Shown: positions 1 through 44,463 of the stretch, in pieces
Layout: every line of letters starts with the position of its first letter
Numbering within the stretch: position 1 is the stretch's first letter
IMG/VR virus record: IMGVR_UViG_3300031463_000009
Coordinates: 1-57,961 of that record
Origin: a virus
Reading direction: 5' to 3' (one strand)
DNA length: 57,961 nucleotides
Notes under the pieces: model-generated
Told to the model about the DNA's origin: nothing
The model's input: the letters and a program-made list of their open reading frames with translations, nothing else
The model's database searches: none
Position numbers and translations under genes: made by a program

Positions 1-1386
1 CTTGATTTTCCAGAAGTTTTGGGTGACTACAATTTGAATTACATCCTATATGGGAATACGATACTTACACCCAACTTTGAAACAAGAAAAGTTGTTATTT
101 GCCCACACTGCAGAGAAAAGGTAATATTGTCCGCTACACCAAAGCCAAATTTTGAGGTTGTAATCGGAAGAGGAAAGGACGACCACGATGTGCGTATGAC
201 CTGTTCTAGGTGTTCTAGTAGCTATGGTGCTAAAATAATAGAAGAGCTTGTTCTGCCTGGGCGTGTTAATCTTATCATGTGGGACCTAAAAACCATAGAC
301 ATTCAATATAACAATATAGCTGATACATCTGTATATGTTGTTACTGCATCAAGAAATCAGAGATTGCTAAATCCAAAGACACCAGACGACTTTGAATATT
401 GGCTGGGGTTTCCGATAGATTATATTAGAGCGCTTGTCAAAGGAAAAAGTATGCGTCTTGATTCTGACAAAGTTTTCCACATGCGCTCACCTATATTATC
501 ATCACTATTTCCTGGGTGGGGAATCCCAATCTTATATTTTGCACTTAGAAAAATGCATCACATGGAGGTGGCGTTACAATCTCAGGAAAATCTTATGAAA
601 GACCACTTTAATGTGTACCGTTACGTTTTTCCCAATATGCAAGGTGGTATACCCGGACTTGGGGAAATGAACTTAGCTAAATGGTCTGATACTATAAAAT
701 TAAATCTTCAGAGATATAGACTAGATCCTCTGCGGGTGATGATTTCACCTATCCCAATAGGTTCTGGTGAGATTGGTGGAAAGGGAAAAATGTATGATAT
801 TACTCCAGAGATTCAGGAGTGGACTAAACAATTAATAGCTACAACTGGGGCACCACTTGAGTTGGCTTATGGAGGTTTGTCTTGGAGCGGATCTAATGTT
901 TCTTTAAGGATACTTGAAAATACACTTTTAACTCTTAGGAAATATGACCAGAAGCTGATAGATTGGGTTATTAAACAGGTTGCAAAGGCCTATCCTGGGT
1001 TGACCCCGATAGAAGTCAAATTAAGCCAGTTTAGAATGGCTGAGGATGTTCAGAGGAAAAACATGGCTGGTAGCCTGTATGGACAAGGCTTGATTTCGGC
1101 TACAACTCTTATGGCAGAGAATGGATTTGATCTTGAAGATGAGATCCGTAAGAAAGAGAAAGAACTTGTGCTGTTGGCGAAAATAAAGAAGAAAGAGATG
1201 GAAATACAGGCTGAGATAACACAGGAAGTTTCAAGGGAACAACAGCTTGCCATGATGCAGAACGCCCAAGCGCAGCAGCAACAAGCTCCTGTAAATCCTA
1301 TGAGCGAAAGAGAAAAAGAACAATTAGAGCAGGGTCAAATTCCTACAGCTGAACCGCCAGTCTATCCACCAAGAGGACAAGGCTAA
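1..1386 (+). CDS. Portal protein, 5'-truncated by the window edge
   Basis: The reading frame is open from the first base, so the true start lies outside the window. A TTG at 19 is probably internal. The 460 or so residues seen include a Cys-rich insert near the start (CPHC, then CSRC about 35 residues on) and a central part typical of phage portal proteins: an FxMRSP segment, a SLFPGWG turn, a TTGAPLELAYGGLSWSGSNVSLR-like region (about residues 275-300) and a long charged helical C-terminus ending in a Q- and P-rich tail. A portal forms the dodecameric DNA channel at one head vertex and docks the terminase. The capsid and connector genes sit at the far right of the window on the same strand. 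The terminase is nearby but on the opposite strand. The identification rests on overall pattern, not on a strict motif. Confidence 0.72.
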   Translation, partial: LDFPEVLGDYNLNYILYGNTILTPNFETRKVVICPHCREKVILSATPKPNFEVVIGRGKDDHDVRMTCSRCSSSYGAKIIEELVLPGRVNLIMWDLKTIDIQYNNIADTSVYVVTASRNQRLLNPKTPDDFEYWLGFPIDYIRALVKGKSMRLDSDKVFHMRSPILSSLFPGWGIPILYFALRKMHHMEVALQSQENLMKDHFNVYRYVFPNMQGGIPGLGEMNLAKWSDTIKLNLQRYRLDPLRVMISPIPIGSGEIGGKGKMYDITPEIQEWTKQLIATTGAPLELAYGGLSWSGSNVSLRILENTLLTLRKYDQKLIDWVIKQVAKAYPGLTPIEVKLSQFRMAEDVQRKNMAGSLYGQGLISATTLMAENGFDLEDEIRKKEKELVLLAKIKKKEMEIQAEITQEVSREQQLAMMQNAQAQQQQAPVNPMSEREKEQLEQGQIPTAEPPVYPPRGQG

Positions 1387-3682: not shown

Positions 3683-5275
3683 TTATAAAGCATAGTATGG
3701 GTTACCGGGAAGCCAGAATTCTGGTATGGAAACAACTCTTTGGGCGGCTATTAAGGCGAATGTAAGGGCGTGTAAAAAATCATCTGGTTTGTCTATGCTT
3801 CTGGCATATCTGAATTTGGTTTCTCCTGTACGCAGTTGGGTTTCCTCTATATACACGGTAGTAAGGTCATCTCCGAACTCAGGTATGAACTGGTCAGCAG
3901 AGTAAAAGCTGATTTTCTTGTTTTTTATTAGATGATAGGTATCAGATACGACCATAGTCCTATTTGTAACTAGTCTATAGCCTTCTGCATCCCATTTGAA
4001 TTTTTCAGATGATTGGCCTACATAGGCTATAGGCAGGACTTTGTCTTCTCCAACCTGTTTCATCAGGTCTTGATTCCATTTGAATCCAAACCCCCAGTCA
4101 GCACCGACTATTTTGCAATTGAACGCTTTGATCCATTTTACAAGGTCATTTAGAGCAAGTTCTGGATGAGCTTCTATACCTGTATAACGTTTTGCAAATA
4201 AGGTATCAAATCTTGCACCATTCCAACAAATTATTACTAATACTGTGTATGACTTTAGTCCAGGTCCCCAGTCTACGCCGGCTATATTTAATGTGTGCTT
4301 TGGGGCTTTTGATGGATCTGTCAATTTCTGATAAGACCCACAGACCGATTTTAGTGTATCAAGAGTGAGTATGCCTGTTCCGAAGTCGTATGCTTCACCG
4401 AGTATTTCATTATAGAACTTAGATGTAGGCCACCTTTTCATCTTTGCGATGATTTCTTGCCAAGCTTGCTGATTTAATGCATACTTTGGGTTCAATATCT
4501 GATTGAAGTGGTATCCTTCAAATTCAGCTTCTTTGGCTCTTACCCATTCTCCATTTCTTACGTCTACTGGTCCTTTACATTTAGTGCAGATTGGTCCGTT
4601 TTCTCCTATCATATCTATTGTTGGAAAATTGTGGTGCCCGCAAGCATCGCACCGCATTACCCATTCACAGGCGGTAGAGAATTTAGAGTATAGCTGACTA
4701 AGATAGTTTGACTGGGTAAGAGGTGTCCCAGCTATAAATATTTTGTATTCCCCAGGGAACATCAGTGTGCACGCTTCAATTATGAAGAAAGCATCTTCTG
4801 GTATCTCCTGAGCTTCGTCGATACACAGAACTTTTCCAGTATAGGTTCTTAGCTGATCGCCTCTAGTATAAGCTGTTCTGACCCTGATTATAGAGCCTGT
4901 TCTGGTTTCAATATCTCTAATAGGAATGGGGTTTTTGAAAAGACTTGATAGACCTGGAGAATATTCTATTACAGACCTTAATCGGTCTTTTCCAAAAGCT
5001 TTGGCTTTGTCATCTGAACTTGATACATAAAGCTCTTTTATTGGATGCTCAAGTATCGCATGTGTTAGTAATATGTTTCCCAAGGTGGTGCTTTTACCGA
5101 TCTGACGAGAGCATTTGAATATTATCTTTCTGGATGGGTTATCGTAAGCATCACGAAGATAGTGCCAATTGTCGAACCCACATTTACCCTCCCATGGGTT
5201 GCCATCCACTCTAATTAGTTTGCTTACGAACTCGCTAGGTTTTATTCCTTGTTTTTCAGCTGCTTGTTCGCTCAT
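3683..5275 (-). CDS. terL: Terminase large subunit (ATPase-nuclease DNA packaging motor)
   Basis: The 530-residue protein has both TerL domains. In the ATPase half, the Walker A motif is CSRQIGKST (residues 55-63) and Walker B is VLCIDEAQ (149-156, Asp153/Glu154). The RNase H-like nuclease half shows acidic residues at GVDWG (Asp335), GADWG (Asp393) and the DDFLHAL segment (Asp498/Asp499). Between the halves there is a four-Cys zinc finger (C209, C212, C230, C233), an insertion seen in some terminases. It docks on the portal, fills the head and cuts the genome. The gene is leftward and overlaps the upstream gene by 4 bp, while the portal and capsid genes are rightward, so the packaging motor is transcribed separately from the head. 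Confidence 0.93.
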   Translation of the reverse strand: MSEQAAEKQGIKPSEFVSKLIRVDGNPWEGKCGFDNWHYLRDAYDNPSRKIIFKCSRQIGKSTTLGNILLTHAILEHPIKELYVSSSDDKAKAFGKDRLRSVIEYSPGLSSLFKNPIPIRDIETRTGSIIRVRTAYTRGDQLRTYTGKVLCIDEAQEIPEDAFFIIEACTLMFPGEYKIFIAGTPLTQSNYLSQLYSKFSTACEWVMRCDACGHHNFPTIDMIGENGPICTKCKGPVDVRNGEWVRAKEAEFEGYHFNQILNPKYALNQQAWQEIIAKMKRWPTSKFYNEILGEAYDFGTGILTLDTLKSVCGSYQKLTDPSKAPKHTLNIAGVDWGPGLKSYTVLVIICWNGARFDTLFAKRYTGIEAHPELALNDLVKWIKAFNCKIVGADWGFGFKWNQDLMKQVGEDKVLPIAYVGQSSEKFKWDAEGYRLVTNRTMVVSDTYHLIKNKKISFYSADQFIPEFGDDLTTVYIEETQLRTGETKFRYARSIDKPDDFLHALTFALIAAQRVVSIPEFWLPGNPYYAL

Positions 5276-6053: not shown

Positions 6054-6668
6054 TCATTCTTCAGGTTTTTTAAGTTTGCTAAATTCTTCGGGGATTATAA
6101 TCCCATCTACAGGTGTCCCAAGCATTTTTCTCGACGCTAGGTAATCAGCATAGTATAGGGTAAGTTCAAGACTATCGTATTTATCCAAAGGTTTTCTACA
6201 TTCTTCAGGAGTCCATGGTCCCATGTGATAGGTTATTAGCCTGCAAACGGTATTTAAAAAATCCTTTCCACCGTCTCCGTAAGCTGTTGCCAGGATAGAA
6301 CTTTTTTCTTTTATTAATTCTACGGCGATTAGCGGATGTCTCTCATAATCGTTTGTCCCTTTTTCATATTTATCCTTTTTTCCAATGTCATGCAGTATGG
6401 CAGCGCAATATAGAGCTTCTTTATCTTCTTGTGAATTCTGCGCAGCCTCGCATAGTTGATGCACAACATACCCAACCCGTTTTGTATGCACTATTAGACC
6501 TCCAAGTCTATGCGTGCAAGTTGGGTGATGCTTTCCTGAACTACTAGGTGGTATGGCCCAAAAATGATCGGGTATGACTTCGGTTATAGCTTTTTCGGCA
6601 AAAGTTCTAACATGATCCCTCATTTGCGCCAATTCCCATTCAAACATTGCCAATTTAGATTTATTCAT
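6054..6668 (-). CDS. HD-domain phosphohydrolase
   Basis: The 204-residue protein has the metal-binding His and HD signature of HD hydrolases: GGLIVHTKRV (His61), ILHDIGKKD (His93-Asp94) and YERHPLIA (His111). The order matches single-domain HD enzymes that act on nucleotides or on the 3' ends of nucleic acids. The substrate cannot be read from the sequence. Its start overlaps the end of the glycosyltransferase gene by 8 bp, so the two are probably translated together. HD proteins are found in many phages near nucleotide-metabolism or DNA-modification genes. Confidence 0.82.
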   Translation of the reverse strand: MNKSKLAMFEWELAQMRDHVRTFAEKAITEVIPDHFWAIPPSSSGKHHPTCTHRLGGLIVHTKRVGYVVHQLCEAAQNSQEDKEALYCAAILHDIGKKDKYEKGTNDYERHPLIAVELIKEKSSILATAYGDGGKDFLNTVCRLITYHMGPWTPEECRKPLDKYDSLELTLYYADYLASRKMLGTPVDGIIIPEEFSKLKKPEE

Positions 6669-7611
6669 TCAGTGCTTCCTCCCACACTTTATAATCAAGT
6701 ATATAGTTTTCGGCGTATTTTCTGCAAGCCTCTCCAATGTCGTTTCTAAGACCTTTATCGTTGAGCAGTTTCTTTATTGCCGACTCCCAATCTGACGCAC
6801 TATTAGTGACTAATACTGCTGGAGAATCCTCGTAAGGGCCAAAATTCGTGGCTATTATAGGCAGCTTACGAGAACCGTATTCAAGTAATTTAAGGTTGGA
6901 TATACACCTATTAAATTCGTTTGTGATTATTGGTATTACTCCGATGGTCCATTTTTTTGTTGCGAATAGTTGGAACCATTTAGCGGCTACCGTTCCGTGG
7001 GTATGTTTTATAGCTTCATGTTTGAACGGGGGAGGACAGCACACAAATTCGTAGTTGACATTTTTGTAGTTTTCGTCACTAAGAAGCCTTCTTATCGGTC
7101 CAACTAATAGTTTTACATCCTCTATATGATTTATCCCACCTGCGTATCCTATAGTAGGAACATCTGGTTCTTTCATAGGATAGTCGAAATACTCTTTTGG
7201 TACTAAATTTGGAACTACTTTTGTGTTTTTATTGTATTCTCTCATTACTCCAGCTAAGTATTTAGTTGTTACTATTACCGATCGGCACTCCTTTATTATT
7301 TCTAGGGCTTTTTTTCCCTTATTTTTCCATCTTTCGTAGGCTCTTCCTCTGCTACTTGGTATAGCCAAAAAATTATCATCTAAAGAATACACGCAAATCT
7401 TCTTATTTTTCTTCACAAATTGGAAAGTTACCTCATCCGAAGGGAAATACAATATCATTATGTCTGGGGAGTGCTTTTCTTTTACTTCATCTAGGTTCCT
7501 TATTGATGGTACAAGCGCTGTATCATGCTTTTTTCCTAACTCCTTAAATGGGAGGAACGTTCTATAATACCCAGACCCGGATTCTGCAGAGCCTACAAAG
7601 ACTATTTTCAT
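6661..7611 (-). CDS. Glycosyltransferase (GT-B type, group 1-like)
   Basis: The 316-residue protein begins MKIVFVGSAESGSGYYRTF, a Rossmann strand with a Gly-rich loop that also fits GT-B glycosyltransferases. The C-terminal half has the usual second Rossmann domain: IGYAGGINH (about residue 155), then LKLLEYGSRKLPIIATNFG (about 242-260), corresponding to the donor-sugar site of GT4-like enzymes. A phage enzyme of this kind could glycosylate phage DNA, a virion protein or the host surface, and nothing nearby decides which. It is the first gene of the leftward operon leading to terL. AGGA precedes the ATG. Confidence 0.78.
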   Translation of the reverse strand: MKIVFVGSAESGSGYYRTFLPFKELGKKHDTALVPSIRNLDEVKEKHSPDIMILYFPSDEVTFQFVKKNKKICVYSLDDNFLAIPSSRGRAYERWKNKGKKALEIIKECRSVIVTTKYLAGVMREYNKNTKVVPNLVPKEYFDYPMKEPDVPTIGYAGGINHIEDVKLLVGPIRRLLSDENYKNVNYEFVCCPPPFKHEAIKHTHGTVAAKWFQLFATKKWTIGVIPIITNEFNRCISNLKLLEYGSRKLPIIATNFGPYEDSPAVLVTNSASDWESAIKKLLNDKGLRNDIGEACRKYAENYILDYKVWEEALNE

Positions 7612-22661: not shown

Positions 22662-22722
22662 GTCTCCCCGGTCTTGGACTAATTAGACTTTAGTCTGAGC
22701 CGGGGAGACTAATTATTTTTTT
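22662..22722 (+). terminator. Strong intrinsic terminator
   Basis: A perfect 10-bp outer stem (GTCTCCCCGG at 22662-22671, CCGGGGAGAC at 22700-22709) encloses a second stem of GACTAA and TTAGTC. Seven T follow at 22716-22722. It separates the replication genes from the RNA polymerase gene, so that gene needs its own start. Confidence 0.92.
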
Positions 22723-22774
22723 AGTCCTATCGTTAGTGGCGTCTTTTAGTAATTTAGAGTAAAATTTTATAGAG

Positions 22775-25700
22775 ATGATTGACCCTATTGAGCATAGCCG
22801 AGACATTGCCAAATCGGTTGCAGATGCGTTTATGCAAGTATTCCCTATAGAAGGGAGTAAGCATATTCTGCGACTAAACGGTGTTGATGTTGAGCCTAAT
22901 GAGTATATGTCAGACTACCCAGCCCAACTTAAGGCTAAGTTAAGCCATAGAAGTCTGTTTCAGAGGGTGGTGGGGGATTTTTCTCTCATAGATAAAGCCA
23001 CAGGAAAGGTATTGGATCGGAAGAAAATGACTTTGGCACATCTTCCTGCATTGACAGACAGATACTCATATATTGTAGGTGGCACTGAATATACTGTTCC
23101 TATACAGCTTAGGTTGAAACCTGGGGTTTATACAGAGCGTAAAGAGGATGGAACCATTCAAGCCAAACTTAATTTGGTTAACCTAAGAGGTAAAAGTGCC
23201 GCAGTTGTTTTTGACCCTGCTACGAGGATATTTAGTTTCAACTACGGGTCTTCAGAACTTCCGCTATTCCCGATATTAGAGCATCTTGGAGTTTCTGGTC
23301 AAGAATTAAAATCATTAGTTGGAGAAGATGTTTATAACGCAAACATAAAAGACAGAGAAAAAGCGGTTGCTCGTTTTGCTAGGGCGCTAGGAGTAAGCCC
23401 TGAGGATATTAGTAAAGTATTCAACGAGACCGTGCTTGATCCAAATGTTTCTAAATTGACGCTTGGACGATCTTTCTCTAAGGTAGATGGAAATGTGTTA
23501 TTGCTTGCCACAAAAAAAGTTATTGGTGTTTCTAAAGGGATGGCTAAGGAAGATGATAAAAATTCTCTTGCATTCAAAACCCCGATAGATACAGCCGATT
23601 TTTTGAAAGAAAGGATACTAAAATCAAAACAGGTTTTACATAACAGAACTCTAGCAAGGCTCGACAGGCTAAATGATATATCTAAGATTGTTATATCTGA
23701 ACATTTTTCTCATCCTATTCTTACTTTTTTTACCTCCAGCCAAGTTGTTGGACTTCCTTCTCAGGTAAATCCTGTAGATATTGCTTCGTCTGGTTCTAAG
23801 GTTACAGTTCTGGGAGAAGGTGGTATCTCATCTCTCGATCAGATTGTAGAGAAACAACAACAATTGGACCCATCTACTTTTGGTTTTTTAGACCCCATAA
23901 TGACTCCAGACAATTCAAAAGCCGGGCTTGTTGTTCATATGGCTGTTGGAGCCAAAAAGAAAGGAGACTCTTTAGTCTCCAAAGTGTGGGATATTAAAAA
24001 TAAGCAATACACTTATATAACACCTGAGAAAGCTTTTGAGTCTTTCGTGGTTCTTCCAGATCAGGTGAAAATCGTGGATGGCAAGATTAGTTTTGTTTCT
24101 CCAAGAGTAAAAGCAATTCATAAGCATGAAATAGTAGATATACCAGCCAGCAAGGTAGATTATGTGTTTGATGTACCAGAGGCACTTTTCGACATAGCTT
24201 CTTTGGGTATACCTTTTTTAGCTCATGATTCTGGCAATAGAGCTCTTCTTGCTACTAAACATATTGAGCAGAGTTTGCCTCTTGTCGATGCTGATCATCC
24301 ATTAGTTGATGTTGAAGTGGCGAAAGGGCATGGTTGGTCTGACGTTGGAAGAGCCGCGTTCCCGATGGTTGAATCACCTATTGACGGCGTTGTGTCCAAA
24401 GTAACCAAAGACCAAATAGTAATAAAATCTGGAAAGAACGTGGCTAAAGTTCCTCTTCTTAATTATTTCCCTCTTGAAGACGGTGGTTATGCCCATTCTA
24501 CCCCAGTAGTCAAACCAGGCGACAAGGTTAAAAAGGGAGATATTGTTAGCGAAACAAATTTTACAGATAAACAAGGAAAACTCAAGATAGGTAAGAATCT
24601 TTTAGTTGCTTATGTTCCATATAAAGGATTAAATTTTGAAGACGGAATAGTAGTATCTGAAAGTGCAGCTAAAAAGCTAACATCACGCCATTTGTATAGA
24701 GAGAATGTTTATACTTCAAAAGGAATAGCTGTATCCAAAAATAAGCTACTCGCTTTGTATCCTGGGATTTTTAATACTAATCAGTTGAATAAGTTGGATT
24801 CTGATGGAGTAATTAAGGAAGGTGAATATATTGATGAAGGGGATCCTTTAATAGCTGTACTCCAGCATGACATACAACCAAAACCTGAAGAACTTCTCTT
24901 AGCAAGGTTCTCAAAGAAATTGTACCAACCTTGGAAAAATAAGACTGTTACTTGGACTAATCCATTTAGGGGTAGAGTTGTAAGAGTTGTAAAAGGCAAA
25001 AATATAGATGTCTACATAGAAACAGAGGAACCTGCTCAGGTCGGGGACAAGCTGAGTACTAGAGCCGCTCCTAAGGGAATAATAACCTACATAGTCCCAG
25101 ATGCAGAGATGCCAAAAACAGAATCAGGAAAGACCGTAGATGTAATTGTGAACCCGTTGGGGATACCTTCAAGACTCAATTTTGGTCAAGTATTAGAGGC
25201 AGCTGCTGGAAAGATAGCAGAAAAGACAGGAAAACCTAAGATGGTTGCTCAATTTAAGAAGGGCGACCTTGAAGAACTAGAGAAGGAACTTAAAGAGCAT
25301 GGAATTTCGGACAAAGAATATCTAATAGACCCAACGACAGGGGTCAAAACAGAGCATCCTGTTTTGGTAGGTCCTGAATATATTTTGAAACTTAAACACA
25401 CTGCCTTGACGAAAGCCACCGCTCGTGGAGGTGGGGTAGGAGAAAAGTATTCTTATGATTCCATTCCTTTAGGTGGAGAAGGAGCCCAATCTTTAGGTCA
25501 CCTTGGTCTTTATGCGATGCTTGCTCATGGGGCATTGAAGAACCTGTATGAAATGCAGACATATAAAAGTTCGGCGAATCCTGAGTTTTGGTTCGCTTTG
25601 CAATCTGGAGCCCCTCTTCCTCCTCCATCTGTGCCGGTCCCCTATAAAAAATTTGTCGACTATTTGCGCACGCTCGGAGTAGATGTAAAGAAAACAGGAA

Positions 25701-28700
25701 ATGTGCTGCAGCTATACCCACTGTATGACGAAGATATTCTCAAGCTTAGTTCAGGTGAAATAGATCCAACCAAAATAATTAGAGGTAAAGATTTAAGAGA
25801 AGAACCTGGCGGTTTGTTTGATCCTGTTAAAACAGGTGGTATTACAGGGACTAAATATTCTCATATTACACTTAATGCATCGTTTCCTAATCCTATTTAC
25901 AAGGATGCTTTTGCCATTCTGTTTGGTATGACAAGGACTCAATATGATGAGCTAATACAGGGTAAGTTAGGTGTTACTGACGATGGCAAATTATCACCAG
26001 ATGGAAAATACCGACTTGATAAAGCCTTTAAGAAGTTGCTATCCACGCTTGATGTGAAAAAGGAACTGGCAGAATCAGAGGAAAGAATAAAGAACACATC
26101 AGGCATTGAGCGGGCAAAACTGGCCAGAAAAATTAGAATACTTCGTCATCTTGCTGAGTTGAAAAGAAACCCCGAAGATGTTTACATGACTAAGCATGTG
26201 TTGGTTATCCCTCCTTATTTTAGGCCTATAACTGAGACTAAGGATGGAAATATTTCTGTCAATGACCTGAATGGGCTGTATAGAAACATCGGTATTCTAA
26301 ATCAACAGCTTAAACAAGCAAAGGAGCTAACAGATAAAGAACAAGCAGACGCTTATGCGTCAGTTTATTCAGCCCTTGAGGCGTTACAGATGAATGGGCT
26401 TTCAGTTGGGTCTAAGCAATACAGGTCCGTTCTCGATATTATAGCTGGGCCACAACCTAAATTAGGATATTTCCAACAGTCACTTTTGAAGCGGAGGCAG
26501 GATCTAAGTGCAAGGGCTGTCATTGTTGTTCCTAAAGAAAGTATGCCTCTTGATGAAGTAGGACTTCCTGAGAAAATGGCTTGGACAATTTTTGGTCCTT
26601 TGGTTATAAGAAGATTGACCAGAGCCGGTTATACCACCCTACAGGCTACTGAGATGGTAAAAAACAAAGTTCCGGCCGCAAGGACAGCCCTAGAAAGAGA
26701 AATGAAAGAGCGACCTGTATTACTAAAGAGAGACCCGGTATTGCATCGTTATAATGTGATGGCTTTTTACCCCAAGCTTGTTTCTGGAGAAGCTATACAC
26801 ATCCACCCATTGACCTTACAGGGTTTCGGCGGAGACCTTGATGGAGATGCATTTTCTGTGTTTACCCCTGTAACAGAAAATGCTGTAAAAGAGCTACAGA
26901 ACTTATTACCATCTAACAACCTGTTTTCTACTACTTCAGGAAAGGCTTTGTACGCCCCAAGACACGAAGGGTTGATGGGGCTATATCTTTTATCCCGCGT
27001 GGAGAAAAAATCGGATAAGAAATTCGACTCGGTACAAGATTTGATGGCTGCTGTAAATGAGAAAAAAGTTTCCCTTAATGAGGAAGTAACTGTCGCAGGG
27101 AAAAGGACTACTGCCGGAAGAATACTTATTCAAGAGGCACTGCCAAAAGGCTATGAAGTAGATGTTTTAACAGGTAAAAATCTTGCCAAACTACTTTCGG
27201 ACATTGGGCATAAACATCCTAATGATTATCCATCGGTAGTTGAAAAGCTAAGAGTTCTTGGTAATGACTATGCGTTTAGATACGGCGTCAGCATGGGTAT
27301 AGAAGATGTAAAAGTGCCTAAATCCTTACAGGAATATACTAAACGGGTCTGGGACAAAGCTGAGCGTATGGCAGCCAATACTAGAGATCAGGACAAGAAA
27401 ACTAAGATTTTATTAGCTGCGAAAGAGTCCATAGAGAAAAAAGCATTGGAAACTCTTCCAAAAGATTCATTCCTTTACAAAATGGTTGAATCTGGAGCAA
27501 GAGGTAACCCTGGGCAACTTTTGCAAATGACTGTCGGACCTGGTTTGGTAGAACAACACGGGAAATTGATTACTGTTCCTATAAAATCTGGTTATGGCGC
27601 TGGGATGGATGTGACCGATTATTTTACATCGATGCTTGGGGCAAGATCCGGTCTGGTTTCTGGAAAAGCTCGTGAAATTAGAGACCCGGGCTGGCTATCA
27701 AAACAAATGTTGGCGTCGGTATTAGACGTTAGAGTGACCTCCGACGACTGTGGGGTTAAAAAGGGCACTTATATGAGTGTTGATGACGACCAAATTCTAG
27801 GAAGGTATTTGCCTAACGATGTGACCATAAATGGTAAAGTATATCGTAGGAATACATTAGTTACTCCGGAACTTTTGTCCGAAGCGAAGAAGGCTAAGAT
27901 CAAAGAATTAGAGGTTAGATCCCCTTTGAATTGTCAGGCTCCTCATGGAGTTTGTAAGAAATGTATGGGATTAAACCCAAGTGGAAAAGAACATAGGCTA
28001 GGCGAATTTGTTGGGGTATCTGCTGCCCATGCCATAGGTGAACCGAGTTCACAGCTTGCTCTTTCTGGGTGGCATACCGGAGGCGCTGTAGGTGCGCAAA
28101 TATCTCCTTTTAATAGACTACGTCAACTTTTGGCATTCCCAGAGAATTTGTCAGGAGAATCAGTATTAGCCCAGACTTTTGGAAAAGTTGAAGCCATACA
28201 CAAAAAGCCTTTAGGGACAGAGGTAGTAATAAATAATGTTACTCATTGGGTTCCTTCTGACAAGAAAGTAACAGTCTCTGTAGGCGACAAGGTTACTAAG
28301 GGTCAGCCAATTTCTACAGGACTATTTAATCCGAGAAAACATATGGAGCTCGTCGGGGTTGAAGGAACTAGAAATAAGTTGGTTGATGAAATATACAATT
28401 TACTTCGGACACAAACTCCTATTAGAAGAACTAATGTTGAACTTATAGTAAAAGCCTTGACTAATGTAGCAGAAGTAGACGATAGAGGTGGTCACCCACA
28501 TTGGTTAGAAGGAGACCTTGTGCCATTGAATCATGCTAATTGGTTCAACAAATCTGGTAGATTTGCAGAGATTTCTAAAGGAAATGCTGTCGGTGGGAAA
28601 CTATTGGAAAACTACAAAGGATTCAAGAAAGGCACAATTGTGGACAGGAGTATGCTGCCTCATCTTCCTGACCAGGTTAAAGTAGAGTTGCCTCCAGTCA

Positions 28701-28918
28701 AATATAAACCGGTGTTGAAGGGAATTAATGTTCTACCTCTGGAAGTTGGAAGCGACTGGATGACAAAGCTTAATTTCGAGCGCATTAAAACAAGTGTTAT
28801 TGAAGCGGCTATAACTGGGGGGAAATCTAAACTTCAGTCGTTTAATCCAATCCCAGATTTGGTGTATGGCACGGACTTTGCTGACGTTTCTCAAATAATG
28901 GACAAGAAGACAAAATAA
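22775..28918 (+). CDS. Fused beta-beta' multisubunit-type RNA polymerase, single polypeptide
   Basis: The 2047-residue protein carries both large RNAP subunits. Beta blocks: NFEDGIVVSE (620-629), GDKLSTRAAPKGI (757-769), NPLGIPSRLNFGQVLE (793-808), PLGGEGAQSLGHLGLYAM (898-915) and the C-terminal clamp PSVPVPYKKFVDYLRTLG (951-968). Beta' begins almost at once: LYDEDILKLSSGEI, a clamp-helix region NDLNGLYRNIGILNQQLKQ (1163-1181), RQDLSARAVIVVP (1241-1253), then the catalytic GGDLDGD (Asp1354, 1356, 1358), bridge helix/trigger loop GARSGL...DPGWLSKQM (1622-1645), zinc site C1659/C1720/C1727/C1730 and GEPSSQLALSGWHTGG (1755-1770). The beta' N-terminal zinc ribbon is missing, and Gly1352 replaces the Asn of NADFDGD. 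Cellular beta plus beta' total about 2750 residues, so this is compact. No alpha, omega or sigma gene was seen. Its place among head genes allows a virion-carried role (inference). Confidence 0.95.
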   Translation: MIDPIEHSRDIAKSVADAFMQVFPIEGSKHILRLNGVDVEPNEYMSDYPAQLKAKLSHRSLFQRVVGDFSLIDKATGKVLDRKKMTLAHLPALTDRYSYIVGGTEYTVPIQLRLKPGVYTERKEDGTIQAKLNLVNLRGKSAAVVFDPATRIFSFNYGSSELPLFPILEHLGVSGQELKSLVGEDVYNANIKDREKAVARFARALGVSPEDISKVFNETVLDPNVSKLTLGRSFSKVDGNVLLLATKKVIGVSKGMAKEDDKNSLAFKTPIDTADFLKERILKSKQVLHNRTLARLDRLNDISKIVISEHFSHPILTFFTSSQVVGLPSQVNPVDIASSGSKVTVLGEGGISSLDQIVEKQQQLDPSTFGFLDPIMTPDNSKAGLVVHMAVGAKKKGDSLVSKVWDIKNKQYTYITPEKAFESFVVLPDQVKIVDGKISFVSPRVKAIHKHEIVDIPASKVDYVFDVPEALFDIASLGIPFLAHDSGNRALLATKHIEQSLPLVDADHPLVDVEVAKGHGWSDVGRAAFPMVESPIDGVVSKVTKDQIVIKSGKNVAKVPLLNYFPLEDGGYAHSTPVVKPGDKVKKGDIVSETNFTDKQGKLKIGKNLLVAYVPYKGLNFEDGIVVSESAAKKLTSRHLYRENVYTSKGIAVSKNKLLALYPGIFNTNQLNKLDSDGVIKEGEYIDEGDPLIAVLQHDIQPKPEELLLARFSKKLYQPWKNKTVTWTNPFRGRVVRVVKGKNIDVYIETEEPAQVGDKLSTRAAPKGIITYIVPDAEMPKTESGKTVDVIVNPLGIPSRLNFGQVLEAAAGKIAEKTGKPKMVAQFKKGDLEELEKELKEHGISDKEYLIDPTTGVKTEHPVLVGPEYILKLKHTALTKATARGGGVGEKYSYDSIPLGGEGAQSLGHLGLYAMLAHGALKNLYEMQTYKSSANPEFWFALQSGAPLPPPSVPVPYKKFVDYLRTLGVDVKKTGNVLQLYPLYDEDILKLSSGEIDPTKIIRGKDLREEPGGLFDPVKTGGITGTKYSHITLNASFPNPIYKDAFAILFGMTRTQYDELIQGKLGVTDDGKLSPDGKYRLDKAFKKLLSTLDVKKELAESEERIKNTSGIERAKLARKIRILRHLAELKRNPEDVYMTKHVLVIPPYFRPITETKDGNISVNDLNGLYRNIGILNQQLKQAKELTDKEQADAYASVYSALEALQMNGLSVGSKQYRSVLDIIAGPQPKLGYFQQSLLKRRQDLSARAVIVVPKESMPLDEVGLPEKMAWTIFGPLVIRRLTRAGYTTLQATEMVKNKVPAARTALEREMKERPVLLKRDPVLHRYNVMAFYPKLVSGEAIHIHPLTLQGFGGDLDGDAFSVFTPVTENAVKELQNLLPSNNLFSTTSGKALYAPRHEGLMGLYLLSRVEKKSDKKFDSVQDLMAAVNEKKVSLNEEVTVAGKRTTAGRILIQEALPKGYEVDVLTGKNLAKLLSDIGHKHPNDYPSVVEKLRVLGNDYAFRYGVSMGIEDVKVPKSLQEYTKRVWDKAERMAANTRDQDKKTKILLAAKESIEKKALETLPKDSFLYKMVESGARGNPGQLLQMTVGPGLVEQHGKLITVPIKSGYGAGMDVTDYFTSMLGARSGLVSGKAREIRDPGWLSKQMLASVLDVRVTSDDCGVKKGTYMSVDDDQILGRYLPNDVTINGKVYRRNTLVTPELLSEAKKAKIKELEVRSPLNCQAPHGVCKKCMGLNPSGKEHRLGEFVGVSAAHAIGEPSSQLALSGWHTGGAVGAQISPFNRLRQLLAFPENLSGESVLAQTFGKVEAIHKKPLGTEVVINNVTHWVPSDKKVTVSVGDKVTKGQPISTGLFNPRKHMELVGVEGTRNKLVDEIYNLLRTQTPIRRTNVELIVKALTNVAEVDDRGGHPHWLEGDLVPLNHANWFNKSGRFAEISKGNAVGGKLLENYKGFKKGTIVDRSMLPHLPDQVKVELPPVKYKPVLKGINVLPLEVGSDWMTKLNFERIKTSVIEAAITGGKSKLQSFNPIPDLVYGTDFADVSQIMDKKTK

Positions 28919-28955
28919 CTAACTTATTGTATTTTTTTAGTTAGAGGTATGAAGT

Positions 28956-32426: not shown

Positions 32427-32867
32427 ATGGAAGACTATGAACTGTTAAAAACAGCAGCTGCATTAGATGCAGCCAAGAACAATGATGTCAACACTTTAGC
32501 AGAGCTATTCGTCATGGATCTGGATGACGCTACTAAAGAGGCATTGGCGAATGCTCTTGTGAAGGAGGCTGACTGGAACCTCTTTACAGGCGACGCTGGA
32601 GAGGCCCTTGCTCGTCTGTACGAGAGAATATTCCACCCAGAAGCCTACAGGGCTGGTCAGATCACGCCGGAAGATATTGAGGGTATAAAGAACAGAAATA
32701 CCATTGCACAACAGCGTGAGTTGATCAAAAAACTCAAATTAGGTGTTGGTGGAGCAACTGGGGCAGCTGGATTGGCTGGTCTTTTGGCAGCAGCGTTGGC
32801 ACTTCGTGGGCGTGCTCGCGGAGGCAGCAAACTCGTTTCCTTGCTAAGAAAGGTTCGTCCTCGGTAA
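32427..32867 (+). CDS. Leader-cassette paralogue A, small membrane protein
   Basis: The 146-residue protein begins with a 48-residue leader shared with the next two genes: LLKTA (Lys8 to Ala10) and a second LVKEA (Lys46 to Ala48). The rest has a soluble helical stretch, then a Gly/Ala/Leu membrane segment (about 105-130) and a basic end KLVSLLRKVRPR. AGGAGG precedes the ATG. I infer a head-packaged protein whose leader is removed by the phage protease, leaving a small basic membrane-active peptide. Confidence 0.74.
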   Translation: MEDYELLKTAAALDAAKNNDVNTLAELFVMDLDDATKEALANALVKEADWNLFTGDAGEALARLYERIFHPEAYRAGQITPEDIEGIKNRNTIAQQRELIKKLKLGVGGATGAAGLAGLLAAALALRGRARGGSKLVSLLRKVRPR

Positions 32868-33555
32868 GTCTCTGGTAAACGCTTAAAGCCCTGTTTGACA
32901 ATCGTCAGATTTGTCAATCGGGTCTTGTAGACTAGATGAAGGAGGATAACATGGAAGACGATTATGAACTGTTAAAAACAGCAGCAGCATTGAACGCTGT
33001 AGAGAATGATGATGTCAACACTTTAGCAGAACTATTCGTCATGGAACTGGATAACGATACTAAAGTGGCACTGGCTAATGCTCTTGTAAAAGAGGCTGAA
33101 GGAGAAATAGGAAGAGATGAGAAAATTCCACCTTGGCTAGGTTCGGGTTTGCGATACGAAAGAATCAAAAAAATTCTTAGCGGACCTGCTGGATGGGGTG
33201 GAGCAGCTGGGTTGGCTTCTATACCGGGCATTTTGGCACTAGCATTAGCGCTTCGCAGACGTGGTGGTGCTAAAGGAGCTAACAAGCTCGTTTCTATGCT
33301 AAGAAAGGTTCGTCCTCGGTAAGCGGGGATATTGGTAAGAGCTTGGAGACCTGTTTTTGATACCCACCTTGCTGTCATCAGGTTTTAGACGCTGTGTAGC
33401 TAGCATAGTGAGGTCGACATGAAAGACGACTATGAACTGTTGAAAACAGCAGCAGCGTTAGATGCAGCCAAAAACAATGATGTTAACACTTTAGCAGAGC
33501 TATTCGTCATGGATCTGGATGACGCTACTAAAGAGGCATTGGCGAATGCTCTTGA
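32432..33555 (+). repeat. Tandem duplication of a leader-coding block (three copies)
   Basis: The first about 130 bp of the genes at 32427 and 33419 are nearly identical in DNA, including long exact runs in the part coding for NTLAELFVMDLDDATKEALA. The gene at 32951 has a diverged copy. The gaps after the first and second copies also resemble each other (a CTT-AAAG/GGAG-CCTGTTT core). The downstream halves of the three genes differ in sequence, so the repeat is a shared 5' cassette. Confidence 0.8.
32951..33322 (+). CDS. Leader-cassette paralogue B, small membrane protein
   Basis: The 123-residue protein starts at ATG 32951, 6 bases after AAGGAGG. The in-frame ATG at 32936 lies before that site and is less likely. 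The leader has LLKTA (Lys9 to Ala11) and LVKEA (Lys47 to Ala49). The mature part has a hydrophobic segment (AGLASIPGILALALALRRR) and the same end as paralogue A with one change (KLVSMLRKVRPR). The conserved basic tail suggests a shared function at a membrane or on DNA. Confidence 0.74.
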   Translation: MEDDYELLKTAAALNAVENDDVNTLAELFVMELDNDTKVALANALVKEAEGEIGRDEKIPPWLGSGLRYERIKKILSGPAGWGGAAGLASIPGILALALALRRRGGAKGANKLVSMLRKVRPR

Positions 33556-33709
33556 GAAAGAGGCTTCATCTAAGTTACTAGCAAGACTTGCAAGAAGAAC
33601 TGCTAGTAGAAGTGCCGGTCTAAGGACTGCATTGGCTTCTCTTCTATTGGCTAGGGGTAGAGGTAAGTCTAACCAGATCAAGACTTTATTACGATTTTTG
33701 AGGAAGTAA
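33419..33709 (+). CDS. Leader-cassette paralogue C, short basic protein
   Basis: The 96-residue protein shares the leader (LLKTA, then LEKEA at Lys47 to Ala49). After the second K-x-A only about 47 residues remain. They are very basic and Ala/Leu/Arg/Ser-rich (LLARLARRTASRSAGL), looking like an amphipathic DNA- or membrane-binding peptide. GAGGT precedes the ATG. Confidence 0.74.
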   Translation: MKDDYELLKTAAALDAAKNNDVNTLAELFVMDLDDATKEALANALEKEASSKLLARLARRTASRSAGLRTALASLLLARGRGKSNQIKTLLRFLRK

Positions 33710-35355: not shown

Positions 35356-35372
35356 TTTATTTGGAGGTTAAT

Positions 35373-37058
35373 ATGATGAATTTTTACAAGACAAGGGTCT
35401 TAACTAAAACTGCTACAGTCAAAGTTCCTTTAGATCCTTCTATATGGGTTGACTTTATATCTCAATATGTTGCAAAGGAACATCCAGAACTTGTTGGTAA
35501 TAAAATAGCTGTTGAGTTTGACAAAGCCGATCCTGAAAAAGGATATGCTTTTGGAACTGTTAAAGTTTCTTCTTCTCAGGATACAACTAAAACTGTGGCT
35601 CTTCCGATAGTAATTGAAAATTTTAAGATATACCCATTGGATCTTATGTTAAAAGAAGGGGATCTAGCCCCTTATAATGAGGATGAGGTTTCGAGAATTT
35701 TGTTCTCTCCAAGCTTTGTAAACAAACTTGTTCCTCGTCCTAAAAATATGCCTGATGCCCCTATAGTTGTTCCTTTTGCTAGTTTGAATAAAGGGGCTTC
35801 TAAAACGGCCTTGTTTGAAGACTTGGGACCACTGACAGATGACAAAACCAAAAAGGAGTTCTTAAAGGAACTAAAAAATCATCCCGATTTACTGAAAGTA
35901 GCTGGTATAAAAGAGTTTTTCGAGAGTAAATATTCTCCTATGTCTAAAACACCGTTAGCTTACCTTTCAGACGGAAAGAAAGGATATACACTTGCTCAGA
36001 ATATATTCGACGGCTCATTCGAAGTGATAGAGAAAGACGCATCTGAAGCGGAAGTAGTCCAGTTTACTGAAGGAGAAGCATCTGAGGTCCCGCCTCCTCT
36101 TAATACTCCTGAATCAGGTCCTTGTCTTGTAAAGTGTGGCAATTCTATCATATCTGCTTACAGAATAAGTAAGGTGACTGACTTCGAACGGGTCTATGAA
36201 AGACCTATGTATGTTCTTCCTGAAGGGCTTTATTCTTTTTCAAAAGTGGCTGCTTCCAAATTTGACGAGGCAGTGGATGTATTCGGCCCTCCTGAGGGTT
36301 TTGGAATGTTCCTTTTCAATTCTAAAATAGCAAGCGTTCCTATGACCATCAATAGGGTAGGAGATGATTACTTTGCTAACGCTGGAACAGTCCCAATGCG
36401 TCTGATTTTTGTTCCAGAGCTTGCTTATCCTGTAAAATTAGCAAGCGAACTATTCATTCCTTATGACGCAGAATTTATACCTATGCGGAAACAGATAACC
36501 CTAGATGAGATGACCGGTCTTCCTGAAGAATCTTACCAGTATCATCTGATAAAACAGGGTAATAGCTTTTATCTTGGTGGAGACGCCAGAAACTTGTCTA
36601 ATCTATCTGCAAGAGATGCTTTCTTGCATCTAATATCACTTGGATGTTCTGACAAGCTGGCATCAAAAATCATTAAAGAAGCTTCATCAAATCCTAATGG
36701 GAAAACTTTCTGGTCGAATTCTCCTGAGTTTGCTTGCGCTGACCTGCAGAAAACCGCAGACCTTATAGATGAGCTTAAGGAATCTTTATTTGACGAGAGC
36801 GAAGATCTTAAGGCAACCCCTGCGGTGGATAAAGTCCTGGCTCTTTCTGTTTTAACTCCAGAGAACCTAGGGGTTTTCTTGAATCATGCCGATGAACTTG
36901 AAGATTCAATTTCTTATTTATCTAAGCTGTTACTTTTATGTAGGCTTGGTTTGAGAGATGTTCCAGAGTCGAGTGTAAAAACCTCATTATCTTCTTTGGC
37001 CAAACTTAAGAATATATTGGGGTTAATACAAGAATCTATACCAAAGGAAGGGGAATGA
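35373..37058 (+). CDS. Large probable virion protein, function unknown
   Basis: The protein (561 residues from ATG 35373; ATG 35376 is equally possible, GGAGGT at 35363-35368) starts with a leader MMNFYKTRVLTKTA (Lys12-Thr-Ala14). A beta-rich region follows, with FKIYPLDLMLKEGDLAPYNEDEVSRILFSP (about 90-120) and a SKTA at about 144-147. The C-terminal third is helical with Leu-rich stretches. It has no membrane segment. Its leader and position between other leader-bearing genes suggest a head-packaged protein. It is coupled to the next gene. Confidence 0.7.
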   Translation: MMNFYKTRVLTKTATVKVPLDPSIWVDFISQYVAKEHPELVGNKIAVEFDKADPEKGYAFGTVKVSSSQDTTKTVALPIVIENFKIYPLDLMLKEGDLAPYNEDEVSRILFSPSFVNKLVPRPKNMPDAPIVVPFASLNKGASKTALFEDLGPLTDDKTKKEFLKELKNHPDLLKVAGIKEFFESKYSPMSKTPLAYLSDGKKGYTLAQNIFDGSFEVIEKDASEAEVVQFTEGEASEVPPPLNTPESGPCLVKCGNSIISAYRISKVTDFERVYERPMYVLPEGLYSFSKVAASKFDEAVDVFGPPEGFGMFLFNSKIASVPMTINRVGDDYFANAGTVPMRLIFVPELAYPVKLASELFIPYDAEFIPMRKQITLDEMTGLPEESYQYHLIKQGNSFYLGGDARNLSNLSARDAFLHLISLGCSDKLASKIIKEASSNPNGKTFWSNSPEFACADLQKTADLIDELKESLFDESEDLKATPAVDKVLALSVLTPENLGVFLNHADELEDSISYLSKLLLLCRLGLRDVPESSVKTSLSSLAKLKNILGLIQESIPKEGE

Positions 37059-39720: not shown

Positions 39721-39872
39721 TGTTTATCTCTCTGTTGCTCTTGTTCCATAAGCCCTGGATAAAAAGTGTTGCATAGCTTGGAGAACCCACATACTTTTTG
39801 TCTATGTGAAGGACAAATCTGCTTGTTTTTTATTATCCTACATGGCACAGCTACTTTATTTTTATCGTTCAT
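39690..39872 (-). CDS. Short Cys-containing protein
   Basis: The 60-residue protein has AGGAGGG before its ATG (read leftward). Four Cys in CRIIKNKQICPSHRQKVCGF plus LC and a C-terminal Cys could bind a metal. Its start overlaps the stop of the radical SAM gene by 4 bp, so it may be translated with it and could be a partner or substrate. That is only a possibility. Confidence 0.55.
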   Translation of the reverse strand: MNDKNKVAVPCRIIKNKQICPSHRQKVCGFSKLCNTFYPGLMEQEQQRDKQCNTSDHART

Positions 39873-40750
39873 ATACTACCCTCCTGCTTAAGGTATGATG
39901 TTTTTTCAACAACTAACATAGTCCCCTTTCTGCTTTTTACTTCTTTGAAATTAAGACCAGGTTTTTTGTCCAAAGGGCAAACGATTGTTTTAACCTTAGC
40001 CCAGGTATCTGATAAATTAGTGTATTCAACATAGTCTTTTGAATTAGAACAAATAGATGCTCTTCCTTTGTAGTCTATGCACATACTTATTTTACCCTGA
40101 TCGCATTGTTTAATCACACCTGTTTTTTCTGATATATTCATCGTCTTCCACAAGCATGGGTCAAACCAGAATGCGTGCGAGTTGTCGTCTATTAGAGTTA
40201 AAACTTTGTCTATTACTTTGTTAGTTCCTTTTCCAGCCACTGGTTTTTTGAGTAATAGAGTAATCTTATTGATGTCTTCTTTTAACAGACTATAAGCGTC
40301 TGCAAAGTCTTTTGGGTTAGTGACTATATGATTTATTCCTATGCTTTTTACTTCCATGTCTCTGAAGTGCCTTATGGCTTTTATAGCCTGCTTTTTCTTT
40401 AGTGGATGTACATCGTCATACGAAATGTGTATCCTGTCCGGAACCACTGGAAAGTCCTTTTTAGTTGGAAGGATACTCCCGTTAGTGGTCACGGCCACAA
40501 ACATTCCGTATTCTTTAGCTTTGGCGATTATTCTTGGGAGAGGTTCATAGAGGAAAGGCTCTCCTCCACCAATAGCCAAAGACCTAACAATCCCTTTCCA
40601 TTGGTATAACCATGTAGAAACAGTCTTTTCAGGCAGTTCACCATCTCCCCGTTTATAAAAGCATTCAGGACAATTGAAATTACATCTGCTAGTTATCAGC
40701 AGATGTATTGTTAATGGGTAGTCACCCTCATATCTTATTGGTATTATCAT
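39869..40750 (-). CDS. Radical SAM enzyme
   Basis: The 293-residue protein has the 4Fe-4S motif CNFNCPEC (C23, C27, C30) directly after a LLITSR strand, the GGGEP motif (61-65), VTTNGS (about 88) and RIHISYD (about 106). These are in the order of the radical SAM TIM barrel. Extra Cys in the C-terminal part (KQCDQGKISMC, SICS, IVCP) suggest a second cluster site as in SPASM/Twitch proteins that modify peptides. The substrate is unknown. The neighbours (a short Cys peptide downstream and two paralogous proteins upstream) are worth testing as partners. The start overlaps the upstream gene by 23 bp. Confidence 0.87.
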   Translation of the reverse strand: MIIPIRYEGDYPLTIHLLITSRCNFNCPECFYKRGDGELPEKTVSTWLYQWKGIVRSLAIGGGEPFLYEPLPRIIAKAKEYGMFVAVTTNGSILPTKKDFPVVPDRIHISYDDVHPLKKKQAIKAIRHFRDMEVKSIGINHIVTNPKDFADAYSLLKEDINKITLLLKKPVAGKGTNKVIDKVLTLIDDNSHAFWFDPCLWKTMNISEKTGVIKQCDQGKISMCIDYKGRASICSNSKDYVEYTNLSDTWAKVKTIVCPLDKKPGLNFKEVKSRKGTMLVVEKTSYLKQEGSI

Positions 40751-43512: not shown

Positions 43513-43655
43513 TTTTGTCCTCCTTTCTTTTCGGTTTTTTCTTTGGTAGTCTTCGTTTCTTTTTCCCGATTGGTTAATCTAAGGAGCCAATTCCGAATAT
43601 AATCAGTGGTTGTATCTGTTTTATCAACTGACACTGTTTTTGTCTTTTTTTTCAT
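43488..43655 (-). CDS. Possible short Lys/Thr-rich protein
   Basis: A 55-residue frame from ATG 43655 is dominated by Lys, Thr and Glu (KKKTKTVSVDKTDTTTDY). It overlaps both neighbours. A GTGGAC before the ATG is a weak ribosome site. It fills what would otherwise be a gap between the beta-helix gene and 43216-43512. The same frame continued upstream reads through the beta-helix repeats and is not a gene. Confidence 0.35.
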   Translation of the reverse strand: MKKKTKTVSVDKTDTTTDYIRNWLLRLTNREKETKTTKEKTEKKGGQKCQEDQKQ

Positions 43656-44463
43656 AGTGTCCACTTTTGTCAATTGCACTCTGTTCCGGTTCGCCTGGCA
43701 CCTGTGTATTCCTAGAGACTCGCGTATTACCGTAAATCCGTGCGTCTCCGTAAACCTGTGCATCACCCGAGACCCGTGCGCGATCAAATACCCATGCATT
43801 ACCTGAGACAATAGCATTACCGGAAACCCGTGCGTGACCAAAAACCTTAGCATCTCCACAGACCTGGGCGTTGCCATTTACCTCTGCATCATCAAAGATT
43901 AATGCATCATCATAAACTTGTGCACTGCCATAGACTTGTGCACTACCGGTGATTCGTGCGTGCCCTAAGACCTGTGCATTATCAAGGATCATCGCATCCC
44001 CGGCTATCCATGCATTACCTGCTATCTGTGCATCATCACCGACACCTGCATTATCAGATACTTGTGCGTTATCGAAGATTTGTGCGTTATCATCAATCCA
44101 CGCATTACCGAATACCTGAGCATTACCAAACACTTTTGCATTAGAAGAGACTACTGCATTGCCGAAGACACGAGCATTACCGAAAACTTTTGCATCATCG
44201 TAGACCAAGGCTTCACCAAAAACTGTTGCATTTCCGCTTACCAATGCATCGTCAAAGACCCGTGCGTCATCAGAGATCCACGCATCACCTTCGTGCGATA
44301 AGTTATTCTCAGATTCTACCCATCCTCCGAGATCTCCCCGTTTAACCGCACCGAAATCCCGCAAAGCACGAATGCGTCTCAGTCCATTTTTGGTTTCATT
44401 AGTCAATTCGTATTTTTTCGTTTCCACTTTCGAATCCTTTTGTTCTTTTTTACATTCGCTCAT
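43624..44463 (-). CDS. Hexapeptide-repeat left-handed beta-helix protein
   Basis: The 279-residue protein begins with a charged start and LRRIRALRDFGAVKRGDLGGWVESENNLSHEG (split about residues 28-60), then about 30 hexapeptide units of the form (D/G)(N/D)AxV(F/Y/S)(G/D) over about 190 residues. Each three units make one turn of a left-handed beta-helix. Proteins of this type are common in phages and bacteria. The repeats do not carry an acyltransferase active site that I can see. It probably serves as a rod-like or sugar/peptide-binding module. The tail after the helix is charged. Confidence 0.82.
   Translation of the reverse strand: MSECKKEQKDSKVETKKYELTNETKNGLRRIRALRDFGAVKRGDLGGWVESENNLSHEGDAWISDDARVFDDALVSGNATVFGEALVYDDAKVFGNARVFGNAVVSSNAKVFGNAQVFGNAWIDDNAQIFDNAQVSDNAGVGDDAQIAGNAWIAGDAMILDNAQVLGHARITGSAQVYGSAQVYDDALIFDDAEVNGNAQVCGDAKVFGHARVSGNAIVSGNAWVFDRARVSGDAQVYGDARIYGNTRVSRNTQVPGEPEQSAIDKSGHYEKKDKNSVS

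Follow-up and report, generated by a model that had tools for sequence, protein, structure and literature searches.

The stretch of DNA analysed here (the window; 57,961 nucleotides, positions 1 to 57,961 of the IMG/VR virus record IMGVR_UViG_3300031463_000009) comes from a phage of bacteria and carries at 22775-28918, on the plus strand, an open reading frame (ORF) of 2,047 codons with zero internal stops. This frame encodes an RNA polymerase (RNAP) as a single chain, and all of the elements of the gene given below lie on the same strand. Pfam domains of the beta subunit (Rpb2_3 at residues 330-393 and Rpb2_6 at 537-887, E-value 3e-61) are followed, colinearly and in the cellular order, by those of beta' (Rpb1_1 to Rpb1_5 at 1082-1900), and a phmmer search of the PDB with the protein returned bacterial beta' chains as the best solved relatives (E-value 6e-102). 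The beta half covers about residues 1-960 (22775-25654) and, from the Pfam matches and an AlphaFold2 model, holds the N-terminal lobe, the beta double-psi barrel, the flap and part of the clamp, while the beta' half covers about residues 985-2047 (25727-28918). The frame is a whole bacterial-type beta and then a whole beta' in a single protein, beyond what chance would give. An earlier note, made from the letters of the window, had described beta motifs up to about residue 970 and beta' motifs from about 975 in one uninterrupted frame with beta first; the fusion and its order hold, and the join is corrected to a short segment at about residues 960-985.

The same frame is intact in an independent IMG/VR record (G001, 61,959 bases), where it is again 2,047 amino acids (aa) long with 98% aa identity, and for this reason we do not take the fusion to be an artefact. 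Between the window and G001 the gene has 278 nucleotide differences, about 242 of them synonymous, and no frameshift, with a ratio of nonsynonymous to synonymous substitution rates (dN/dS) of 0.039 and similar constraint on the beta and beta' halves. This ratio shows strong purifying selection on the gene. The second record, the dN/dS of 0.04 and the many independent contigs that have this architecture rule out a frameshift, and they also rule out two genes joined in error during assembly. A stop or frameshift within 22775-28918, named in the earlier note as the thing to look for on resequencing, was found in neither record.

Residue conservation was read from an alignment of 83 sequences (82 from phages and one bacterial), with E. 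coli numbering taken from a comparison with E. coli beta and beta'. The two catalytic lysines of the beta double-psi barrel, K759 and K767 (GDKL...KG at 25043-25078; E. coli beta K1065/K1073), are unchanged in 83/83, as are D1354, D1356 and D1358 of the beta' DxDxD triad (GFGGDLDGDAF, 26822-26854) and beta' R1319, the equivalent of E. coli R425. The trigger loop (28022-28090) has its histidine, H1767 (E. coli H936), in 82 of the 83. Next to these invariant positions the window protein has some substitutions of its own: its triad motif reads GGDLDGD against NADFDGD in most relatives, which puts Gly at the position of E. coli N458, and Ser takes the trigger-loop position of E. coli R933. With all the catalytic residues of both barrels present, the enzyme appears to be catalytically intact. 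The alignment also locates the bridge helix region (27596-27694) and the second zinc site of beta' (C1659/C1720/C1727/C1730, 27749-27964; E. coli C814/C888/C895/C898), whose cysteines are kept in 77-79 of the 83 sequences and are all four present in the window protein. At the beta' N-terminal zinc ribbon, 82/82 aligned phage sequences have gaps in place of all four Zn1 cysteines of E. coli, and the beta/beta' junction (about residues 960-1000, 25652-25774) is a short linker without this expected element. Two further elements are divergent. These are the tip of the beta flap domain (residues 687-756, 24833-25042, from the alignment with bacterial and E. coli beta) and the clamp-helix coiled coil (residues 1164-1207, 26264-26395), which forms two long helices in the AlphaFold2 model, departs from E. 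coli at contact residues, and corresponds to the element on which sigma docks in bacteria.

AlphaFold2 models were built from 38 phage sequences for two overlapping segments of the chain. The model of residues 1-1000 has a mean predicted local distance difference test score (pLDDT) of 85.8 and a Foldseek match to full-length bacterial beta (E-value 1.6e-75, TM 0.75). The model of residues 500-1690, which includes both barrels and the junction, has a mean pLDDT of 85.6 and matches bacterial beta' over about 780 columns (E-value about 1e-42). For each half the predicted fold is that of its bacterial counterpart, beta or beta', and the comparison with bacterial RNAP that the earlier note had proposed, with a failure of the double-psi barrels to form as the adverse outcome, was passed at the level of these segment models and their Foldseek matches.

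Single-sequence queries of IMG/VR gave only near copies and one distant relative, and an alignment query was used instead. It found 347 loci that encode relatives of the RNAP. The best 80 of these were kept, and all 80 are single-ORF fusions of about 2,000-2,460 aa, except for cases at contig ends, on contigs of up to 202 kb. The search of environmental phage genomes that the earlier note had suggested thus recovered the same fusion many times over, and the view of it as an isolated oddity among phages falls away: the single-chain RNAP belongs to a large, mostly uncultured and widespread phage clade, and a fusion unique to one phage is excluded by the at least 80 single-chain loci in IMG/VR. 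Among 50,697 phage records, a set that may lack records very close to the window, the clade hits that cover most of the protein were Salmonella phage Arash (OQ632216) and the Vibrio phages D69, D181 and D148, none of which has beta and beta' complete in one chain.

A second query, centred on D69, brought in relatives with other layouts. In the two-piece layout of D69, Arash and others, beta and the start of beta' form a chain of 1,470-1,530 aa, and the C-terminal part of beta' is a second protein of about 610 aa in loci whose stored sequence extends to it; a three-piece layout has proteins of about 1,112-1,142, 378-394 and 607 aa. The breaks fall inside beta', and the beta/beta' boundary is fused in all loci examined. 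A tree of 74 rows, drawn up with archaea, eukaryotes and mReC sequences (see below) left out, gives the phage clade as one branch with support of 100 against five bacterial rows; 51 single-chain rows lie on one side of a branch (support 84), and the split forms cluster. In Vibrio phage D181 (L012, 2504-3453) the polymerase gene is also interrupted near beta residue 515 by an annotated homing endonuclease, and the gene in L107 is broken at that point too. Splitting of the RNAP genes driven by introns or homing endonuclease genes is possible in these two.

Some of the records met in these searches are of a different kind. The phage-labelled L005, L007 and L009 have the look of normal bacterial rpoB-rpoC contigs and were rejected, with L005 kept only as a bacterial reference. 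Phage-labelled OR846602, OR844998 and CAKLQH020000005 carry apparently ordinary bacterial rpoB and rpoC, likely through host contamination. Other beta-beta' fusions, in frames of 1,270-1,792 aa with one ending at a contig edge, occur on contigs L191, L193, L196 and L197 from bacterial metagenome-assembled genomes (Deltaproteobacteria, Desulfobacteraceae and Thermotogota); they fall outside the phage clade in the tree and are possibly separate mobile elements. Additionally, a contig of the isolate assembly of Desulfovibrio sp. An276 (L179, NZ_NFJC01000017.1) has a split-type clade member plus a portal gene, which is a hint of Desulfovibrio as the host of that member.

Window position 1 corresponds to G001 position 31819, and G001 runs 30 kb further left with no overlap with the right side of the window. 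Because this near-identical record extends the window leftward, the window is a fragment of a phage genome of at least 88 kb. This extension bears on the statement of the earlier note that no alpha, omega or sigma gene is visible. Alpha and omega genes, looked for with the RpoA and omega/Rpb6 Pfam domains, were found in 0/33 records, which include the complete D69 and Arash genomes and represent the species of the window by fragments only, with controls positive in 13 and 14 of 14. For these two subunits the statement holds, and for sigma it holds within the window only. A phage lacking sigma is excluded by a full RpoD-like sigma-70 gene just past the left edge of the window, about 7 kb away (G001:38711-40201, equal to L100:1212-2702 (-)), which encodes 496 aa with regions 1.2, 2, 3 and 4. 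Sigma region 2 is above the cut-off in 6 of the 33 records, so that sigma is undetected in most relatives. The phage sigma-70 is identical to E. coli RpoD over FLDLIQEGNIGLM, the RpoD segment that docks on a bacterial clamp. In the clamp helices of the phage core, R275 of E. coli is replaced by L, V or I in 59/82 phage sequences and Q300 by Y in 78/82, and this phage-specific Tyr at the Q300 position is itself conserved in the clade. With FLDLIQEGNIGLM kept and the matching R275 and Q300 lost from the phage core, the sigma seems adapted to the core of the host. This pattern of residues favours two separate partnerships, the sigma-70 with the host core and another phage factor with the phage core.

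The surroundings of the gene differ between the window and most of its relatives. In the relatives a portal gene lies upstream of the RNAP gene on the same strand in 71/88 loci (median distance 1.3 kb) and a gene for a protein X lies downstream on the same strand in 70/88 (median 2.0 kb), with a terminase further on in 32 loci among those with long enough flanks, so in most of the clade the RNAP gene is part of a head/packaging block. In the window the incomplete portal gene is at the left end (1-1386, plus strand), where its broken frame continues in frame in G001. Its assignment rests on a weak PHROG portal hit and on homology to the annotated Arash portal and to the conserved upstream RNAP neighbour of the relatives. 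The terminase large subunit gene is on the opposite strand (3683-5275, minus; PHROG 675, E-value 9e-58; Pfam GpA_ATPase). Next come the replication genes (helicase, DnaB, primase, DNA polymerase A, a UvsX-like recombinase and an exonuclease) and then, at 22662-22720 on the plus strand, an inverted repeat of 10 bp, rich in G+C (GTCTCCCCGG / CCGGGGAGAC), with a run of T after it, which is likely a terminator separating the RNAP gene from the replication genes upstream. Protein X is encoded at 35361-37058 (plus strand), beyond the RNAP gene, and PHROG, family and PDB searches gave it no identity or convincing match. The genes directly downstream of the RNAP gene match no recognisable family in Pfam and PHROG scans, and the description of the gene as lying directly before head-region genes finds no support in the window.

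The first of four exact copies of TATTTTTTTAG is at 22714-22724, with the others at 28930, 29748 and 30665; all are on the plus strand just upstream of gene starts from the RNAP gene onwards. GACTAAT is also enriched in this region. Such copies could be a phage promoter or a processing signal. Sigma-70-like promoters in the window at 20-38.5 kb were no commoner than in shuffled sequence. Further along, 32427-33709 holds three tandem small paralogous genes whose 141-nt core has 85-94% identity to the reference copy; two more related genes start at 29769 and 30686. Elsewhere in the window there are genes for a radical SAM protein (39869-40750, minus strand), a beta-solenoid/bactofilin-like protein (43624-44463, minus), a LamG-domain protein (56026-57771, plus) and a glycosyltransferase (6661-7611, minus).

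Taken together, the conserved residues and domains argue for a conserved, catalytically intact single-chain RNAP of a widespread phage clade. We consider it probable that the protein is a self-contained DNA-dependent RNAP core of bacterial type, in which the covalent link replaces alpha-guided assembly and a phage-specific factor provides promoter recognition. The short link from the end of beta to the start of beta' would do for assembly what the alpha dimer and omega otherwise do, and the chain would fold as a stand-alone core and transcribe phage genes. Promoters would be chosen not by host sigma but by a phage-specific factor that docks on the clamp helices and the flap, which diverge from the bacterial ones yet are conserved within the clade. 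Given its usual position in the head/packaging block, the odds that the enzyme travels in the virion and acts on the entering DNA are about even.

Several points weigh against this proposal. Host alpha could be borrowed, or a phage alpha could be too divergent for Pfam, and since most of the relatives are fragments the absence of alpha and omega is only as good as the contigs. The alignment at the tip of the clamp helices is uncertain, with E295 and A302 placed differently in two alignments. The same species has a sigma-70 gene, which makes ordinary sigma-dependent initiation conceivable. Additionally, the fold of the 2,047-residue chain was judged from two overlapping segment models. A bolder version, in which the clade packages a self-assembling RNAP beside the portal that works without alpha, omega or canonical sigma and with a phage factor on its remodelled clamp helices, and in which the subunits were fused and then re-split toward the many-piece enzymes of giant phages, seems unlikely to us.

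The time at which the enzyme is made separates two alternatives, each of which we regard as close to an even chance. N4 gp50 and the virion RNAP (vRNAP) of phiKZ are packaged, injected polymerases, and the phage RNAP could likewise be produced late, alongside the head proteins, then be packaged and later injected for the transcription of early genes. Packaging is plausible because the gene usually sits inside the head/packaging block, between the portal and other structural-block genes in 71/88 loci, with the strand shared in every case. None of the 33 records has a further, separate gene that matches the RNAP, and a single chain would perhaps spare reassembly after injection. However, gene position indicates co-expression at most, and in the window the RNAP gene lies 21 kb from the portal, behind the replication block and the likely terminator. 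That arrangement, with the gene after the replication genes on the same strand, speaks for a non-virion enzyme that would be produced by the host polymerase after infection and would then transcribe middle or late genes from phage promoters. The four TATTTTTTTAG copies upstream of the RNAP gene and the next three genes might then be its own promoter or processing signal, and the sigma-70 could bring host RNAP to early promoters. The usual portal-side position speaks against such a role, as it suggests late co-expression, which is late for a polymerase of middle genes. Separate from timing is the question of the promoter factor. The phage sigma-70 may itself fill this role in a holoenzyme with the phage core, given that a full sigma (regions 1.2, 2, 3 and 4) is encoded in the same species and that the core has clamp helices and a flap. 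We find this rather doubtful, as the sigma keeps the bacterial-clamp docking segment FLDLIQEGNIGLM while the core is without R275 and Q300, and as sigma is not detected in most of the relatives, with region 2 over the cut-off in 6/33.

The remaining alternatives concern what kind of protein this is. That the protein has no function or acts as a decoy, or that the frame arose by misassembly, is very improbable: nothing but the unusual GGDLDGD and the trigger-loop Ser speaks for it, and it would have to explain a dN/dS of 0.04 across two records, a full set of catalytic residues and many contigs alike. The enzyme could also be simply a member of a group already published, the multimeric RNAP-encoding Caudovirales (mReC), whose phage-encoded RNAPs are near the cellular beta and beta' and branch near Bacteria (Weinheimer and Aylward 2020, PMC7481178). 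The mReC study searched IMG/VR with models of beta and beta' and used an NADxDGD motif as its inclusion filter (PMC7481178); most single-chain members carry that motif and would pass the filter, which the window GGDLDGD would fail. The text of that study speaks of beta and beta' subunits and raises fusion for crAssphage alone, and all of its typed capsids are PF07068 (PMC7481178). This capsid family was found in 0/31 records of the single-chain clade, while the positive control detected it in Rhizobium phage RHph_TM3_3_6 and Cobetia phage Carin-5. These two phages have separate beta and beta' genes (the second RNAP gene of Carin-5 is beta, not beta'), and their beta' is outside the single-chain clade. 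Because PF07068 is absent here and present in separate-subunit phages outside the clade, the comparison suggests that the single-chain clade is distinct from mReC or is an unrecognised part of it, and we hold plain membership to be somewhat improbable. Searches for papers on fused phage RNAP subunits gave us no account of the fusion in this clade, although the published mReC phages may overlap with it, and a search on phage Arash gave no paper.

If the proposal of a self-contained single-chain core is right, a natural one-chain RNAP with a near-whole bacterial domain set would offer a simple model for which parts are needed and for the purpose of alpha and omega. Bacterial RNAP normally has five chains, and to our knowledge the two-barrel RNAPs of phages have so far mostly been split into pieces or reduced beyond recognition. 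As the split forms of this clade are broken inside beta', and none is seen broken where beta meets beta', the clade makes it possible to test how split phage polymerases arose. The cultured phages with a near version of the enzyme, Arash and D69, put experiments within reach now.

In Helicobacter and Wolbachia, rpoB-rpoC also gives beta and then beta' in one chain, but this is a cellular enzyme that still uses alpha, omega and sigma, and the phage chain is shorter and without the beta' N-terminal zinc ribbon. The mReC, described as having beta and beta' subunits and PF07068 capsids, differ from the clade of the window, which is single-chain and in which PF07068 was not found. The phiKZ/AR9-like vRNAP and non-virion RNAP (nvRNAP) are two-barrel phage enzymes without alpha or omega whose subunits are split (PMC7598289, PMC7824862); each subunit is in pieces and far more divergent, while the RNAP of the window is one whole ORF. 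The crAss-like gp66, YonO and P23-45 RNAPs have both barrels in one polypeptide and form highly divergent branches (PMC10770324, PMC7481178). Enzymes of the crAss, YonO and P23-45 kind have little readable cellular similarity outside DxDxD, in contrast to the nearly full bacterial domain set of the window protein. The absence of cellular similarity outside DxDxD that marks the crAss/YonO/QDE-1-like enzymes is not what we see in the window, with its Rpb2_6 match at E-value 3e-61 and its bacterial beta' match at 6e-102. Closest to it are Arash and the Vibrio phages D69, D181 and D148, which belong to the same clade and have the portal just upstream. Arash and D69 share with the window a chain (1,525-1,527 aa) that joins beta to the start of beta', and differ from it in a break past the Asp-triad region, after which the C-terminal part of beta' is a separate protein of 606-609 aa; the identity of these RNAPs to the window protein is 32%.

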